From: Alcanivorax sp.
GTDB lineage: Bacteria; Pseudomonadota; Gammaproteobacteria; Pseudomonadales; Alcanivoracaceae
Assembly (NCBI RefSeq): GCF_002733835.1
Contig: NZ_NVWY01000033.1
Coordinates: 1-64,000 of the forward strand
DNA length: 64,000 nt
Direction: 5' to 3'
Below are positions 3,898 to 34,165 of the stretch, in pieces. Each line of letters opens with the position of its first letter. Within the stretch, counting starts at the first letter, position 1. A program made the position numbers and the translations under genes. Below the pieces are notes generated by a model that saw only the letters and a program-made list of their open reading frames with translations, had not been told where the DNA came from and ran no database searches.

Positions 3898-5212
3898 GGG
3901 CTTCCAGGCGGGGATGTTGCCAGTCGCTGGCTTGCAGGGCTGTTAAAATAGCGGTGGCCTTGTGACGCTGTTTCTGTCGCCAGGCCAGCTCCGCCAGCAG
4001 TAATTGATAGGGCGCCGGCAAGGTATGGACCTGGCCGCCCAGTGTTTCAAATTCCTTCCACACCTGACCAAGCAGGGCGTCACTGCCGGGCTGTTCGCGC
4101 AGCGCCTTGATGCTCTCCATCATGGCGCCAGGCAATTGCTGAACGCGCGCCCCCATTTCCAGGAAAAAGCACCATTGGGGCAAGCTGGTGGGGGTGCTGT
4201 TCAGTTGTTGGCGACAGTGTGCCTGAGCGTCAGAGAAGCGTAGTTGCTCGGCCAGTTGTTGGCTCAGCCTGGGCACGGGAGCCTGACGAAGCGTATCTCG
4301 GGCGGCGCCCTTATGGGTGTCAGATGCTGCCTTTTGGGGCCGGGTATAGGGCAGGCAAAATGCAATTGCCAGGCCGGTGAGTAGCCCGCCAGCGTGGGCC
4401 ATATAGGCCACGTTGGTCTGGGCGGTGGCGGCTTGCACCAGCTCCCAGCCCAGCCAGACCGGGAATAGCACCAATGCCGGGGCACGGAAACTGCCAAACA
4501 GAAAGCCCAGGCTGTAGAAAAACTCCAGCCGCTGCAGACGGTAGGTGCCGACAAATAACCCCATAAGCCCGGAGATAGCGCCGGAGGCACCGACCAGCGG
4601 GATACCACTGTGTGGGTCTTTGGCAATAAACAGCAAGGCGGCGCCAACGCCGCTGATCAAGTACGCGCCGATGAAGCGCAGGCTGCCCCAGTGGCGCTCC
4701 ATGGCGATGCCGAAGACAATCAGAAACAGCATATTGCCGAGCAGATGAAACCAGCTACCGTGCATGAACTGTGAGCTTAGCAGGGTGGTGAGGCTCATTT
4801 CATTGGGGATCAGCCCCCATCGCATGGTGGAGTCGTCAGCCAGCCAGCTATCCAGCTTCTGCCGCAGGTTCCGCCATTGAGTAGGGGGAGGCTGTTGTTG
4901 CCACTGCTGCTGCACATAGTGTGCGAATTCCCTGTCATACCAGCCGAATGACCACATTAGATCCGGGCCGCGGCTATCCATGGAGATGGCATCCGCGTAG
5001 CGGTTGCTGTCCTTGTGCATCAACCATTGCAGCAGCAGGGAGGCCTCATGGTCTGCCAGCCGGTTTTCCTGTTCTGCTGTCAGTGGTTCGTCACGCTGGT
5101 AATCACGGTGGGTGGTCCAGGCGTAAATGAGGGTGTTGATCAGGATCAGCAGAATGCAGACCCACGGTGTGGTGCGGCGACTGTCCTTGTCACCAATTGG
5201 TACGATTAGCAT
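3872..5212 (-). CDS. Rhomboid-family intramembrane serine protease with long C-terminal extension
   Basis: A 446-aa protein. One N-terminal membrane helix is followed by a ~110-residue soluble insertion, then the rhomboid core: MHGSWFHLLGNM, the nucleophile motif GASGAISG (Ser210) and the catalytic His in AHAGG (His273). The last ~150 residues are soluble and helical, with alternating Q/L/A-rich stretches that may form TPR-like repeats. It should cleave membrane helices of other proteins; substrates are unknown. It is larger than a typical rhombosortase (about 200 aa) and carries extra domains, so I do not call it one. The neighbour on the opposite strand also has a helical repeat tail. Confidence 0.88.
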   Translation of the reverse strand: MLIVPIGDKDSRRTTPWVCILLILINTLIYAWTTHRDYQRDEPLTAEQENRLADHEASLLLQWLMHKDSNRYADAISMDSRGPDLMWSFGWYDREFAHYVQQQWQQQPPPTQWRNLRQKLDSWLADDSTMRWGLIPNEMSLTTLLSSQFMHGSWFHLLGNMLFLIVFGIAMERHWGSLRFIGAYLISGVGAALLFIAKDPHSGIPLVGASGAISGLMGLFVGTYRLQRLEFFYSLGFLFGSFRAPALVLFPVWLGWELVQAATAQTNVAYMAHAGGLLTGLAIAFCLPYTRPQKAASDTHKGAARDTLRQAPVPRLSQQLAEQLRFSDAQAHCRQQLNSTPTSLPQWCFFLEMGARVQQLPGAMMESIKALREQPGSDALLGQVWKEFETLGGQVHTLPAPYQLLLAELAWRQKQRHKATAILTALQASDWQHPRLEALSQKLANA

Positions 5213-28716: not shown

Positions 28717-29406
28717 ATGAGTGCGCAACTTCCCCTGGCCCTGCAGCTTCGCGAGGGCAATGCCCTGGATAATTTCCACGCGGGTCCCAATGGCGCTGCC
28801 ATTGCCGGGCTTCGTGAGGCGGTGGAAGGTGTCGACCGGCAGGCGTTTTTCTGGGCAGGTAACGGGCAGGGCAAAAGTCATTTGCTGGAAGGCGCGGTGC
28901 GACTGGCCCAGCACAATGGTCTGGATGCTTGTCTGCTGCCTGCCAGCGAAATCATTCCACTGGTTCCGGAAGTGCTGGAATCCATGGAACAGTTCGGGTT
29001 GCTGGCCATTGATGATTGTCAGTTGTTTGCCGGCCTGCCTGCCTGGGAAGAAGCCCTGTTCCACCTTTATAACCGGCTGATGTCGTTGGGTGGACGATTA
29101 CTGGTCACCGCCAATGCGTCGCCGGGGGCAATGGGCTTGATGCTGCCTGATCTCGCTACCCGTTTGGCGGCGGGCCCGGTCTACCGGCTGATGTCGCTGG
29201 AAGACGAGGATTTACAGGCGCTATTACAGGAAAGAGCCAGGGCGCGGGGCTTGCGACTGGAACCGGAAGTGGCCCATTACATCGTCTTGCGCAGTGAGCG
29301 GTCCGCTGGCGCCTTGATGGAATTATTGAGCGATCTGGACCGTCTGGCCCTGGCGCAACAGCGCTCTGTCACGATTCCCTTTGTCAAGGATGCGCTGGGG
29401 TGGTAA
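28717..29406 (+). CDS. hda: DnaA inactivator Hda
   Basis: A 229-aa AAA+ protein. Loaded on the DNA-sliding clamp, Hda stimulates ATP hydrolysis on DnaA after initiation and so prevents re-firing of oriC. The clamp-binding peptide QLPLAL is at residues 4-9; the P-loop reads GNGQGKSH, Walker B LLAIDDCQ, and the arginine-finger region is RLAAGPVYRL. ATG 28717 follows the DUF2066 stop by four bases. Confidence 0.94.
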   Translation: MSAQLPLALQLREGNALDNFHAGPNGAAIAGLREAVEGVDRQAFFWAGNGQGKSHLLEGAVRLAQHNGLDACLLPASEIIPLVPEVLESMEQFGLLAIDDCQLFAGLPAWEEALFHLYNRLMSLGGRLLVTANASPGAMGLMLPDLATRLAAGPVYRLMSLEDEDLQALLQERARARGLRLEPEVAHYIVLRSERSAGALMELLSDLDRLALAQQRSVTIPFVKDALGW

Positions 29407-29593: not shown

Positions 29594-32500
29594 ATGCGCC
29601 ACCTTGGGCTACGGCAGTGCCTTGCTGGCTGCGCCTTGATTTTTGCGGCCACCTCCCATGCAACGACTTACAATATCGAGACCACCTCGGACGTGGCATT
29701 CGAAGAGGTCGTGCGTGTCGATGATGCCGGTGAAGAATCGACTTATGAGGTGCGGTTTGCTGAGAAAGATGACCTTTGCTCTGTGCGGGAGGCTGTCTAT
29801 GCAAGCAATTATCAAGTTGCCGTGGATGGCTGTGAGGCAGGCACAGGTTCGAACACGATCAAATTGGTTGCTGGTGAAACCTACTTTCTTAGTGAGGGTG
29901 AGCTGCCAATTAGTGGTGGTTTGAAGGTCCGGTTTGAAACTATTGAACCGGATGATCCTGACGACGAACCAGTTCAGCAGCCGGTTGAGTGTTCGGATGA
30001 TCCCTGCCCGGAAGATATAAAGCTGAAAAGCGAGGTCAGCTTTACTGTGGCGTTGGCGGCTTTTGAAGATCCTGACCTGGATAATTTACCGGCTCTGGCC
30101 CCTGCTCCGAGCGCTGGGCCTGCCAGCCTGTTCAACATTCAAGAAAGCAACTCGCTTACCGTGAAAAACATGCGTTTGGGGCCTGCCAGCGATGCTGACG
30201 ACCCACTTGTTTGTACGGATTCCCTAGCGGTTGACGAGGGCGGCCTGATACGTTCTTCGGGTACCGTGATTATTGCTGAGAATATGACGCTTCAGAATGG
30301 CTGCGCCAAACAGGGGGGCGCGATTTACCTGGCTGGGAAAGGCGTCTTGTCATTTGAGAAGGGAGGACGCTTTGAGAATAACGTTGCCAGGGCAAACGGT
30401 GCTGTCATCGCTACCTCTGATGATTTTCGTGGCGGTTTTACTGGCATCGGTTTTTACATGGCCGGAAACGCGGTTGATCCTTGGACTGCAGAGAGCGCCA
30501 CTATTTACATAGCTGCTTTTGTACCAGAACTTGATGATGAAGGGGTTGAGGAAGACGAACCGCAAGTACAGTTTGGTTTATCAAACGGTACCTTGGCCAA
30601 TAATCGCAGTGGGGGTATCCGGGTTGAGAGGGAAAATTACGCATCCGGATTGCTGAATATGACTATCGCTTTCAATGACGGTATTGGCTTGAGCCTGGAA
30701 GGCATTCCTGTTGACCCTGACGTTGACCTGGATGAACAGGGACCAACCACCCATATCCTGCATTCTGTTGTTGTCGGTAATGAGGGCGCCTGTGACGGTA
30801 CCGCTCTTGTGGAAGAAGAAACCACGCGTCCCACTGCTGCTCGTATTGAGTATGTGATCACCGATGATCCTGGCTGTGTTAACAATATGGATACGGGGGC
30901 GACAGTTAACCCCAATACGGCTCAGTCAGATATTTTTCTAGGCAAAGGCGGCATCGCTTGTGAGGTTGATGCAGAGGGAGCAGGAGGCCCGGAGGAGGGT
31001 GGTTGTGACCCGATGACAGCGGAAGAGCTGGATGGTCCCTATCCTGGTTACTTGCCGAATCCATTGCCTTTGGCCGTAGTTGGTGTGGATGGAGTTGGAG
31101 GTGACGACTTTGCCCCTAGCTTGCTCGACCGGGGCAACCCCGAAACAGCAACAACAGATTTGTGTGAAACCAACGATAACCGAGGGAAGGCCCGTGCAGG
31201 GGCCGGTGGGCGTTGTGATGTTGGGGCAGTGGAATTTCTACGCGCGACGGCCCAGTCTGATGAAATTGCCTTGATCAGTGGTCAGTCCGTTCTCGCTGAT
31301 GTGCTCGAGAATGACAGAAATGATACTTGGGTGGATTGTGGTTTAGTGTCTGGTTTTGATTATGACAATCCTTCGACTTATCCGGAGTGTCTGGACGTCA
31401 TTACGACACCGGGTCGTGGTAGTGCCGTGATTGAAATTATTCGCCTGGATACCGATGGCGAAGAGTTGTCCAGTGATGTGGATGACAGTGAAGTGGACCG
31501 GTTTTATCCGAAAATTCGCTACACCCCGTCCGATAATTTCCATGGCGTGGACCAACTACGTTACCAGGTGAGTGAAAGCGCCTTTGTGGGTGGCACCGAT
31601 ACGGGGCGAGGTTTTAATGATATTGCGAATTTGGTATCAGAGCCCGCAAGTGGCTTGACGGAGAAAAAGAGCATTGGAGCCCAAGGCGCTGGTCTGCTGC
31701 TGTTGCTGGTTTTGGTGGGAATGCTGCGCCGCCACAATCGAGCGCTGATATTGCTGATAACCATGCTGTCTGGTCCTGTGCTGGCAAAAGATATCGTGGT
31801 GGATGTGGTGGGGGATACAGATAATCCAAGCCCTGAAGCCCAGGATCAATCGCCTGCCATCAAGGGCGATGGCATTTGCACCTTGCGCGAAGCGTTAGCG
31901 AATGCCTCTGGAGACGGAAACCCGGATTGCGCCTATGGCACTAATTCAACAGACCGTATTCTTATTCCTGCCATTGAGATCAAGTTAGCAGATACCTTGA
32001 TTGTTGACAGTAGCGTGGAACTTGTGGGCAAGGGGGTGCTTGATGATCCGGATGATGACGAGGACACCGTAACGCAGATTATAGGTAAGGGAGATCATCG
32101 ACTTTTCGAAGTGCGGCCTATTAACCCACAGTCCGCGCACCCGACAGTCTCCTTCCAGTATTTGACGTTGGAAGGTGGAAGAGCGGAAGGCGCTGGTGAT
32201 AGCGGGTCCGGTGCGGCAATTCTGACTGGCGGGTCAATAATTTTTGACAGGGTTGTGATTGCTGGAAATCAGGCAGACGAGTCCGGTGGCGTGGTCTATG
32301 TTCGCGGTAATGCGGGCAACAAGAAGTTGCTGACGTTCAATCGAACCTATGTGCATGATAATCATGCGACGAACGGTGGGGTTCTGTTTACTACCTCTCA
32401 GAACGAGGAAAGTATCGAAATCGCCATGGTCGACAGCACCTTTGCCGGGAATACGGTGGCAGGCGGTGCAGGCAGCGTTCTGAAAGCTAATATTGCTAAA

Positions 32501-34165
32501 GGCCGGATTGAAATTGCCAATAGTACCTTTTTCGATAACGAGGGCGGAGCGGCTCTCGATCTGACCAATAGTTTGGTGAATGCCAACCTTATGAATGCGA
32601 CCTTCCGGGATAATGATGCGGGGATCGATTTAGGGAATGGTTCGGATGCTGAAGTTAAAATGTCGAACAGCATCTACTTCAATAGCGGTGCTTGTACCTC
32701 AAGCGTGGGAGCAGAGCCGGCAGAGTTGGAAGAGAGTTTTTATAATGCTTTTTCTTCTACAGCTTGCGCGGCAAAGAGTGATGATCCTGACGCTACGAAT
32801 TTGGAAAACGTAGATGTAGCAGAGCTTGCTGATATGTTGACCGATGAGCCGGGTACAGGAACGAATACTAACTATGCTCCGCCCTACCTGACGATAAAGC
32901 CGAATGGTGATCTGGTAGATGCGGGCAATGATGAGGCCTCACTGGCGGCGGGTACCAGCTCGCCTCTAAACTGCCGGTCTGTTGACTTGCGGGGAATTTC
33001 TCGAACAGCGGGAGGACGTTGTGACCTTGGTGCTTATGAGTACCAGCAGATAACGGCTGGAGATGACGAAGGCAGTAATGCGGTTTCTTCAGGGCTTCGC
33101 GCTAGCGTAGATCTTTTAGATAATGATCTGGCCAGCGATGGAGCAGAAATTATTTTGCTGGATGACAGCGTTGATCCCGTCATATTTAAAAACGGCATAT
33201 TCGAATTTGAGCGTGCCAAGATTGATGATCCGGACGCGGATCCTGTTGTATATGTGGGAACCGGTGAGTTTTTTGTGCAGAGTGCTGAGGATCCCACACG
33301 GTTTGAACTGACGTACCAAGATGGGAATGGTGACGATGTTGTCGAGACCATCGATTTTGTTTGGCAGTACTATAATGAAAATCGCGACGGTTATGACCTG
33401 CATTGTGGCGATCCGATTCCGCAGTTCATTATTGATGCGAATCCAGATGTTTTTGATGACGGGGATGTAGCAGATGACTGTGTTATTCTTTATACGCCTC
33501 CGTCATTGGTTGATGAGCCGTCACGACCCAGCCCTGCGTTCGCTGATTCGGTATGTAGTGCAACCGCTAACGCTCCGGTAAAAACTGCTTTCCTGTATCG
33601 ATTTCAGGATAGCGAAGGGCTATGTTCTGGGAATGCAAGTGATTGCTCGGATTGGGCTAACCCTGTAGATACGTCGGACTGGGCTGCGGTTGAGTTAACG
33701 ATTAACGACAAACCGCCGGAACTGGAAAGCCTCTCGCGTCTGAATGACCCTGGCCAATCCGTAGAATTCACGCTAAGCATGTCTGACCCAGATGATCCGG
33801 GTCAGGTTGTCGATTGGGAAGAAATGTGGTCGGACGGTATTTCTCCTCCGAAGAGGCGATATCAGGTCAACTTGGTCAAAGAGCCCAGTTTTAGCAAGAA
33901 GGATGAGAATCATAACGCGGTAGGCTATGGGATTTTCCTGGATGTGGCGGGGCAAATCACCTATGTCCCCGAAGGGAATTACAATACCTTCAAGGATACA
34001 TTTACGGTGACAGTCGAAGACAATAAATGTGACGTTACCTCTAAACAAGCCACTTTCACTATCACTTACCCCAACGACGAAACCTCGGCCGGGTCGGGTG
34101 GTAGTCTTGGCTGGGCCATGTTGGGCGGGCTAATCCTTTTGCTGCGTCGCCGAGTGGCGGCGTAG
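29594..34165 (+). CDS. Fused pair of CSLREA-type secreted proteins with C-terminal sorting tails
   Basis: A 1523-codon frame that looks like two proteins in one. Half A (1-~709): signal peptide ending ATSHA, a CSLREA-like motif (LCSVREAVYAS), parallel beta-helix-like repeats, an Ig-like segment (DNFHGVDQLRYQV) and a hydrophobic tail GAGLLLLLVLVG-M-LRR. Half B begins at Met710 (ATG 31721): LRRHNR, a hydrophobic stretch and VLA-KD as in a signal peptide, then ICTLREALANAS, more beta-helix repeats and a GlyGly-CTERM-like tail (GSGGSLGW, hydrophobic, LRRR). Asp/Glu-rich throughout. GC is visibly lower than neighbours (sampled lines 40-48% against about 60%). AGGAG precedes ATG 29594. Function: probable surface or secreted protein; no enzyme motif seen. 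Confidence 0.82.
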   Translation: MRHLGLRQCLAGCALIFAATSHATTYNIETTSDVAFEEVVRVDDAGEESTYEVRFAEKDDLCSVREAVYASNYQVAVDGCEAGTGSNTIKLVAGETYFLSEGELPISGGLKVRFETIEPDDPDDEPVQQPVECSDDPCPEDIKLKSEVSFTVALAAFEDPDLDNLPALAPAPSAGPASLFNIQESNSLTVKNMRLGPASDADDPLVCTDSLAVDEGGLIRSSGTVIIAENMTLQNGCAKQGGAIYLAGKGVLSFEKGGRFENNVARANGAVIATSDDFRGGFTGIGFYMAGNAVDPWTAESATIYIAAFVPELDDEGVEEDEPQVQFGLSNGTLANNRSGGIRVERENYASGLLNMTIAFNDGIGLSLEGIPVDPDVDLDEQGPTTHILHSVVVGNEGACDGTALVEEETTRPTAARIEYVITDDPGCVNNMDTGATVNPNTAQSDIFLGKGGIACEVDAEGAGGPEEGGCDPMTAEELDGPYPGYLPNPLPLAVVGVDGVGGDDFAPSLLDRGNPETATTDLCETNDNRGKARAGAGGRCDVGAVEFLRATAQSDEIALISGQSVLADVLENDRNDTWVDCGLVSGFDYDNPSTYPECLDVITTPGRGSAVIEIIRLDTDGEELSSDVDDSEVDRFYPKIRYTPSDNFHGVDQLRYQVSESAFVGGTDTGRGFNDIANLVSEPASGLTEKKSIGAQGAGLLLLLVLVGMLRRHNRALILLITMLSGPVLAKDIVVDVVGDTDNPSPEAQDQSPAIKGDGICTLREALANASGDGNPDCAYGTNSTDRILIPAIEIKLADTLIVDSSVELVGKGVLDDPDDDEDTVTQIIGKGDHRLFEVRPINPQSAHPTVSFQYLTLEGGRAEGAGDSGSGAAILTGGSIIFDRVVIAGNQADESGGVVYVRGNAGNKKLLTFNRTYVHDNHATNGGVLFTTSQNEESIEIAMVDSTFAGNTVAGGAGSVLKANIAKGRIEIANSTFFDNEGGAALDLTNSLVNANLMNATFRDNDAGIDLGNGSDAEVKMSNSIYFNSGACTSSVGAEPAELEESFYNAFSSTACAAKSDDPDATNLENVDVAELADMLTDEPGTGTNTNYAPPYLTIKPNGDLVDAGNDEASLAAGTSSPLNCRSVDLRGISRTAGGRCDLGAYEYQQITAGDDEGSNAVSSGLRASVDLLDNDLASDGAEIILLDDSVDPVIFKNGIFEFERAKIDDPDADPVVYVGTGEFFVQSAEDPTRFELTYQDGNGDDVVETIDFVWQYYNENRDGYDLHCGDPIPQFIIDANPDVFDDGDVADDCVILYTPPSLVDEPSRPSPAFADSVCSATANAPVKTAFLYRFQDSEGLCSGNASDCSDWANPVDTSDWAAVELTINDKPPELESLSRLNDPGQSVEFTLSMSDPDDPGQVVDWEEMWSDGISPPKRRYQVNLVKEPSFSKKDENHNAVGYGIFLDVAGQITYVPEGNYNTFKDTFTVTVEDNKCDVTSKQATFTITYPNDETSAGSGGSLGWAMLGGLILLLRRRVAA
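31661..31786 (+). other. Junction inside the fused CSLREA gene: sorting-type tail followed by signal-peptide-like segment
   Basis: This part encodes a hydrophobic helix ending in Arg-Arg, a short charged loop (RRHNR) and a second hydrophobic helix ending VLA-K. ATG 31721 could start the second protein independently, though no clear ribosome site precedes it. Read through, the two helices would form a membrane hairpin with both large halves outside. Confidence 0.65.

Follow-up and report, generated by a model that had tools for sequence, protein, structure and literature searches.

Background

The FbcH cytochrome b/c1 precursor of Bradyrhizobium is a single chain with an internal signal peptide that yields two mature proteins, the first of which is a multi-span membrane protein without a sorting tail. 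In viral polyproteins, host signal peptidase cuts at signal sequences, with membrane helices lying between the units and the cuts on the outer face. Known substrates of the GlyGly-CTERM class, such as VesB of Vibrio cholerae, bear their tail at the C-terminus, and according to the accessible portions of two papers (PMC6219818, PMC11389362) RssP cleaves VesB behind its second glycine, with a preference for small residues at P1 and P2, and leaves a new end bearing a glycerophosphoethanolamine-type group; when RssP is absent, GlpG cuts VesB (PMC11389362, likewise available in part). For Acinetobacter, the excerpts available describe a CSLREA protein whose level in the supernatant drops in a gspD mutant (PMC9245377), and place M215_02250 and M215_02255, named GlyGly-CTERM and rhombosortase, among the type II dependent proteins (PMC4713064); that these two are rbtA and its partner is only a guess. 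The beta-helix domain of rhombotarget A (RbtA) is described in a structure paper that was also accessible only in part (PMC12643943). No mention of an internal GlyGly-CTERM or of a fused gene was found in a literature search covering the titles and abstract openings of open-licence papers, and the terms internal, fusion, tandem and polyprotein are absent from the available part of the 2011 rhombosortase paper.

Here, we present the analysis of one gene in a window of 64,000 nucleotides (the whole stretch of DNA that was analysed) from Alcanivorax sp. (NCBI RefSeq assembly GCF_002733835.1, contig NZ_NVWY01000033.1). Alcanivorax is a marine bacterium that eats oil. We consider it probable that this gene encodes a conserved secreted polyprotein with an internal sorting tail and an internal signal peptide, and that rhombosortase and signal peptidase cleave it. 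There are no protein data, and both cuts as well as topology, lipid anchoring and surface location are inferences. A polyprotein cut into two surface proteins had already been proposed in a preliminary description of this DNA, and the conserved frame and the kept signals support that proposal, with the cutting itself remaining an inference.

Frame and conservation of the fused gene

The gene is a single open frame of 1523 codons without internal stop (window 29594-34165, plus strand; 1523 aa). Translation and the junction alignment confirmed what the preliminary description had read here, namely an unbroken frame in which a hydrophobic helix, RRHNR and a second helix ending VLA-K follow one another, and the C-x-x-REA motif with which both halves had been said to open was found as CSVREA and CTLREA (Table 1). 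Among the 15 proteins of the genus, residues 1-41 have an identity of 0.67. The order of genes in the window is purM, a DUF2066-type gene, hda, the fused frame and sthA; the gene between purM and hda gave no NCBIfam match, and we take it to be DUF2066.

Table 1. Features of the fused gene and its surroundings in the window; the assignments of signal peptides, tails and cut sites are predictions
Feature	Position	Strand	Content or evidence
Whole frame	29594..34165	+	Signal peptide A, beta-helix half A, internal sorting tail, loop, internal signal peptide, beta-helix half B, GlyGly-CTERM; one frame in 26/27 matching genomes
Signal peptide of half A, MRHLGLRQCLAGCALIFAATSHA	29594..29662	+	Sequence; N-terminus conserved in genus; cut site inferred
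CSVREA motif, half A (residue 62)	29777..29794	+	First C-x-x-REA
Pre-tail motif, EPASGLTEKKSIGAQG, residues 683-698	31640..31687	+	Identity 0.72 in genus; similar to the tail that ends free-standing rhombotarget A genes
Helix 1, sorting-tail helix, residues about 699-711, AGLLLLLVLVGML	31688..31726	+	Hydropathy at junction
In-frame ATG, alternative start proposed earlier	31721..31723	+	No SD-like match 5-16 bases upstream; unconserved
Loop RRHNR, residues 712-716	31727..31741	+	Positively charged; sorting-tail end and n-region of second signal peptide
Helix 2, internal signal peptide ending VLA, then K; residues 717-731, ALILLITMLSGPVLA	31742..31786	+	(-3,-1) rule at homologous column, 24/25
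CTLREA motif, half B (residue 762)	31877..31894	+	Second C-x-x-REA; TIGR04214
Terminal GlyGly-CTERM tail of half B, GSGGSLGWAMLGGLILLLRRRVAA at the end of B	34079..34162	+	TIGR03501 scores
hda, conserved upstream neighbour	28717..29406	+	TIGR03420 247.9 bits; beside fused gene in 21/21 named loci L050-L070
Block exchanged as one cassette vs Alcanivorax sp. DG881 (L060)	29681..34060	+	Both mature halves and junction

The protein matches 27 of the 57 genomes searched (own genome included), and in 26 of these 27 both halves lie in one open frame. These 26 comprise 25 genomes whose proteins were read and aligned, with one locus (L028) ending at a contig end past the junction, and one genome (G026) that was read separately. 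The fused frame is found in 15 of the 17 genomes searched from the genus of the window and also occurs in four further genera, the 24 aligned relatives being 31-56% identical to the window protein and G026 28% by tblastn. The junction aligns in all 25 fused proteins read, own included. The 27th match, in a genome of 2.1 Mb (G023; locus L217, G023:C132), is a broken remnant that lies between hda and sthA and consists of short pieces in different frames. No match was obtained in nine of the 36 searched genomes of the family (G009, G015, G018, G022, G025, G028, G029, G032 and G034), which counts against the polyprotein reading. A scan of named genomes returned 78 loci, of which the 21 strong ones (L050-L070) were counted, leaving out 57 weaker; the gene is one frame in 21/21. 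By length and junction these loci mostly overlap the 26 fused genomes, and L063 and L070 look additional. A. jadensis T9 (L056) is among the carriers of the fused gene, and the named relatives put the genome of the window in or near Alcanivorax.

The preliminary description had offered the loss of a stop codon between two tandem genes as an alternative. A recent loss of this kind, or an assembly error joining two genes, gains some plausibility from split loci in which a single stop codon separates the two frames (L178, L180, L181, L184 and L185), so that fusion is one step away. It is contradicted by the frame common to 26 of 27 matching genomes, with the 27th a broken remnant, by the three fused genomes that are one-contig assemblies (G006, G007 and G030), and by relatives as distant as those given above. 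We regard this explanation as scarcely conceivable and exclude it, since the frame is shared across the genomes of the family and all 21 named loci.

In G026 (L069/L218) the helices of the junction are separated by some 40-50 residues of loop, and an ATG in frame immediately precedes the second of them; this long-loop form counts against the polyprotein reading and could be on the way to splitting. In a class-wide search for such junctions (369 genomes, own included), 10 genomes matched, and the whole junction was found only in the own genome; the other 11 rows, in nine genomes, were ordinary signal peptides at an N-terminus, followed by a CSLREA or CSLRDA-type motif. Any other fused gene should have matched, so that sample seems to contain no additional fused genome, and the search is a poor guide to how frequent fused junctions are.

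Correspondence to split tandem genes

The model of rhombotarget A (TIGR04212) matches 48 of 119 genomes in another family of the order (f36), which we infer to be Moraxellaceae from the A. baumannii record CP040041, and loci were retrieved from 38 of the 48. Two adjacent tandem genes, each hydrophobic at its start and at its end, are present in 35 of these 38 loci; the remaining three are fused, with open frames of 1488-1520 aa, and all belong to genus g146 (3/3 of its matching genomes). Whether orthologues form one gene or two thus has a divided answer: among the genomes that match the window protein 26/27 have a single frame, and in the other family 35/38 loci have two genes. Orthologues that were consistently two genes had been named as grounds for refutation; they occur only in that other family, where they are the ancestral or sister arrangement.

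In CP040041 the order is purM, a transporter, hda, rbtA and the CSLREA gene, the last two lying 15 bases apart. The flanking DNA contains an Hda match in 21/21 named fused loci and in 31/38 loci of the other family, the seven without a match having about 110-900 bases before the frame of gene A. The A. baumannii record itself (L216, CP040041.1) is 561 kb long and filed as a plasmid, and carries purM, hda, rbtA, pal and tolB; it is possibly a piece of chromosome, where these genes would be expected.

When scored with profiles of the split genes, the B halves best match the split-B model in 28/28 cases (567 vs 322) and the A halves the split-A model in 22/28 (469 vs 437), the other six slightly preferring split-B, which is a further point against the polyprotein reading. 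At the level of these profile comparisons, the fused halves are shown to correspond to the two split genes.

Trees of A and of B were built with 63 rows each (25 + 3 fused, 35 split). They are of a 'quick' kind that cannot tell gain from loss, and the B tree carries a long-branch warning. Both trees need two changes between the fused and the split state, in both the g146 fusion nests inside the split genes, and a single clade of all fused rows is rejected (p-AU 4.8e-58 for A, 2.5e-5 for B). The g146 fusion arose from split genes, barring several fissions; for the common ancestor, the trees leave both states possible.

Signals kept and lost at the junction

In 28/28 fused junctions both of the best 13-residue windows reach a hydropathy of 1.5, against 0/2800 random positions in the same proteins. 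The junction helices hold five charged residues in 728 positions (0.18 per 26, vs about 3 per 26 at random); this low charge is partly by construction, because the most hydrophobic windows were picked, and the random control applies. The loop between the helices is net positive in 28/28 fused proteins and at 298/2800 random positions. After helix 2, the (-3,-1) pattern of signal peptidase stands at the homologous column in 24/25 proteins and is off by one in the last, compared with 16.3% of random tripeptides, and helix 2 meets the criterion for signal peptidase I in its (-3,-1) rule, its h-region and its positive n-region. A small-residue pair precedes helix 1 in 28/28 fused proteins, which is a loose test, as such a pair occurs in 65% of random 15-mers; G-G, G-S or S-G is found there in 26/28, compared with 36% at random. 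Mean pairwise identity among the 15 genus proteins is 0.72 for the pre-tail motif, 0.39 for helix 1 and 0.57 for the whole protein, so the motif is kept by sequence and the helix by character. The pre-tail motif also resembles the free A tails, EP..G..SK.[VI] being common to both consensus lines.

The terminal tail of B exceeds the cut-off of the GlyGly-CTERM model TIGR03501 (15.5) in the genome search, at 18.5 bits, a search in which one of 14 control genomes also exceeds it; in the protein scan it scores 11.6 bits with the whole protein and 13.4 with half B. The internal tail of the window gene, which is followed by about 800 residues and is not at a C-terminus, gives no TIGR03501 match in the protein scan, the genome search or the scan of internal tails, and this miss, together with the lack of cleavage data, weighs against the polyprotein reading. 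Matches at E<=10 are found for 12/22 internal tails, vs 24/35 split A tails and 31/35 split B tails. The internal tail has drifted from the standard GlyGly-CTERM, as the model matches fewer internal than free tails.

That lower rate of matching would also suit a chain that is never cut; its helices would then hold it in the inner membrane as a hairpin anchor, and its two beta-helices would act jointly, as a bipartite protein of the envelope. Every fused protein read has what such an anchor needs, namely a pair of hydrophobic helices with a positive loop. An anchor needs no AxA site, however, yet the (-3,-1) rule is kept far above the random rate. The motif before the helix is better conserved than the helix itself, split orthologues have a stop after the A tail and a start before the B signal peptide, and half B retains a putative terminal sorting tail. 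We consider an uncut chain unlikely, and prefer cleavage at both helices.

The split genes have an ATG for B in 34/35 cases, and in 32/35 a start together with a ribosome-site match of at least four bases. In the fused genes, a start with a four-base SD match occurs in 3/28, the ATG at 31721 not being one of them, an ATG in 11/28, and no start codon at all in 7/28. The stretches searched differ, with 16 codons around the loop in the fused genes and a longer one, -45 to +30 bases around the stop of A, in the split genes. As far as can be read from the genes, then, the fused ones have as a rule lost the start and the ribosome site of B and kept both hydrophobic signals. One conserved frame without an independent start of its second unit meets the criterion for a polyprotein.

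Independent translation of half B, from ATG 31721 or an equivalent internal start, had been the other alternative of the preliminary description. This ATG exists and would give a good-looking signal peptide, and 21/28 fused genes have some ATG, GTG or TTG in the 16-codon stretch. The codon is unconserved, though, and has no SD-like match 5-16 bases upstream, a GGTG at 4-7 bases being too near by the rule used. Since a ribosome-site match accompanies a start so much more rarely in fused than in split genes, independent translation is not the rule; with start and ribosome site mostly absent from the fused genes, an internal start was rejected as a general mechanism, and we hold it to be very improbable in comparison with translation as one chain.

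Family models and fold

The fused protein does not reach the cut-off of TIGR04212 (295 bits), scoring 77 as a whole, 59.4 for half A and 33.3 for half B, and is therefore no member by the cut-off rule. The CSLREA_Nterm model TIGR04214 (cut-off 25) is matched at residues 734-769 with 27.4 bits in the scan of the whole protein; half B scanned alone gives 20.0 bits, below the cut-off, and half A gives no match to this model. The NCBIfam scan also gives choice-of-anchor Q in the fused protein, and the Pfam scan a cadherin-like domain.

AlphaFold models were of medium confidence, with a pLDDT of 74.6 for half A and 70.0 for the hairpin with half B. The best PDB match of the half A model is 9cdu_A (E 7.4e-11, probability 1.00), and that of the half B model the rhombotarget A crystal structures (E 1.7e-6, probability 1.00), with additional matches to cadherin-type domains; by sequence alone, just one 29-residue stretch of half A matches 9cdu. 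The beta-helix-like character that had been suggested for the halves is thereby borne out, both models having rhombotarget A structures as their best match. The hairpin was modelled at low confidence (pLDDT blocks 41-68) and its model is not counted as evidence.

Rhombosortase, secretion and the proposed processing

The search for a rhombosortase that had been recommended earlier was successful: TIGR03902 gives 152.7 bits in the own genome (cut-off 84), whereas all 14 control genomes match below the cut-off and none over it. A rhombosortase over the cut-off is present in 43 of 57 genomes, own included. The type II secretin GspD scores 522.8 bits in the own genome (cut-off 351), with two of 14 controls over. 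Two further rhomboid-type proteins of the own genome lie under the TIGR03902 cut-off (42.7 and 40.1 bits), and one of them may, by inference, be GlpG-like. A rhomboid-family match with 40.1 bits to TIGR03902 lies in the window itself (4361-4783, minus strand, in a frame of 451 aa) and is no rhombosortase by the curated rule. One genome (G016, locus L006; a draft of about 70 contigs) has the fused gene and a glycine-rich terminal tail and no rhombosortase over the cut-off, which may reflect a missing contig or another protease.

This genome, the two sub-cut-off rhomboid-type proteins and the poor agreement of the internal tail with TIGR03501 leave room for a chain that is cut only once or by a different first enzyme, so that B is released by signal peptidase and A either retains helix 1 or is processed by a rhomboid of the GlpG type, much as GlpG is described, in the part of the paper available, to cut VesB without RssP (PMC11389362). 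Against it stand the small-residue pair in 28/28 fused proteins, which matches what RssP is reported to prefer in the partly accessible sources (and which 65% of random 15-mers share), the pre-tail motif common to free A tails, and the rhombosortase in the genome. We judge this variant decidedly unlikely and retain rhombosortase and signal peptidase as the two enzymes.

The observations behind this preference are the one frame, its conservation, the correspondence to tandem genes, the loss of the B start and ribosome site, the two kept signals, and the presence of rhombosortase and gspD genes. In the mechanism that we propose, one ribosome would make one chain, which signal peptide A would direct into Sec, and half A, a rhombotarget-A-like beta-helix, would emerge in the periplasm. 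Helix 1, as an internal GlyGly-CTERM-like sorting tail, would lodge in the inner membrane so that RR stays on the cytoplasmic side, and these two arginines may also form the n-region of helix 2, the predicted internal signal peptide, which would restart export so that half B also becomes periplasmic. Rhombosortase would cut at helix 1 and lipid-anchor the new C-terminus of A, signal peptidase I would cut after helix 2, and the terminal tail of B would presumably also be handled by rhombosortase. A and B could then cross the outer membrane via type II secretion.

We lean, less firmly, towards a more specific view, in which rhombosortase acts in the middle of a chain, the second precursor is the leaving part, and the arginines of the tail are the next n-region. 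The hairpin would in this way turn a two-gene operon into a polyprotein that supplies two matched surface proteins at a ratio of 1:1, on two separate branches of the tree, and the whole would move between species as one cassette.

Exchange of the locus between species

The neighbours of the fused gene are nearly identical between the window and Alcanivorax sp. DG881 (L060), with PurM 99.7%, the DUF2066-type protein 97.6%, Hda 98.3% and SthA 99.6% identical and dS of 0.15-0.30, while the fused proteins are 57% identical at a near-saturated dS of about 2.9. The divergence starts just past the first signal peptide, at about 29681, and ends just before the last tail, at about 34060. Because this divergent block spans the two mature halves and the junction between near-identical neighbours, they were exchanged together.

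Across 12 genomes, the distances of A and B correlate at 0.946, and at 0.922 after removal of the Hda and PurM distances, with 0/2000 permutations as high. This fits two partners that must match, and also fits simple linkage. The locus looks like a variable one for surface proteins that is exchanged between species; that phages or predators drive this is a guess.

Comparison with known systems

In its small residues, hydrophobic helix and arginines, the internal tail is like those of rhombosortase substrates such as VesB of Vibrio cholerae, as these are described in the accessible parts of the papers (PMC6219818, PMC11389362), and the window genome has genes for a rhombosortase and a type II secretin. 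The VesB tail is C-terminal, whereas that of the window gene is internal, is followed by a whole second precursor and misses TIGR03501. Sorting tails of this class have been described as C-terminal, and one that is conserved inside a chain, in fusion with a signal peptide, would differ from them; if the reading is true, rhombosortase accepts substrates with long C-terminal extensions, and the gene would be a clear bacterial secreted polyprotein. The pair exists in nature both as split genes and as a fusion, and these can be compared directly by experiment.

Also close is the pair of rhombotarget A (RbtA, TIGR04212; 9cdu/9cdv) and the CSLREA gene behind it in Acinetobacter, which agrees with the window gene in its place after hda, its order, the best fold match, and a similar tail and signal peptide. 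There, the two are separate genes, each with its own start and stop; in the window they share one frame, and the CSLREA part lies in the same gene. The keeping of the pair as tandem genes, as a fusion and as an exchanged cassette suggests a working partner for rhombotarget A.

The likeness to FbcH is in the single chain, the internal signal peptide cut by signal peptidase and the two products. With viral polyproteins the proposed precursor would share the membrane helices between its units and the cuts on the outer face; it differs in coming from a bacterial gene and in needing, as its other enzyme, a sortase-like protease that acts within the membrane.
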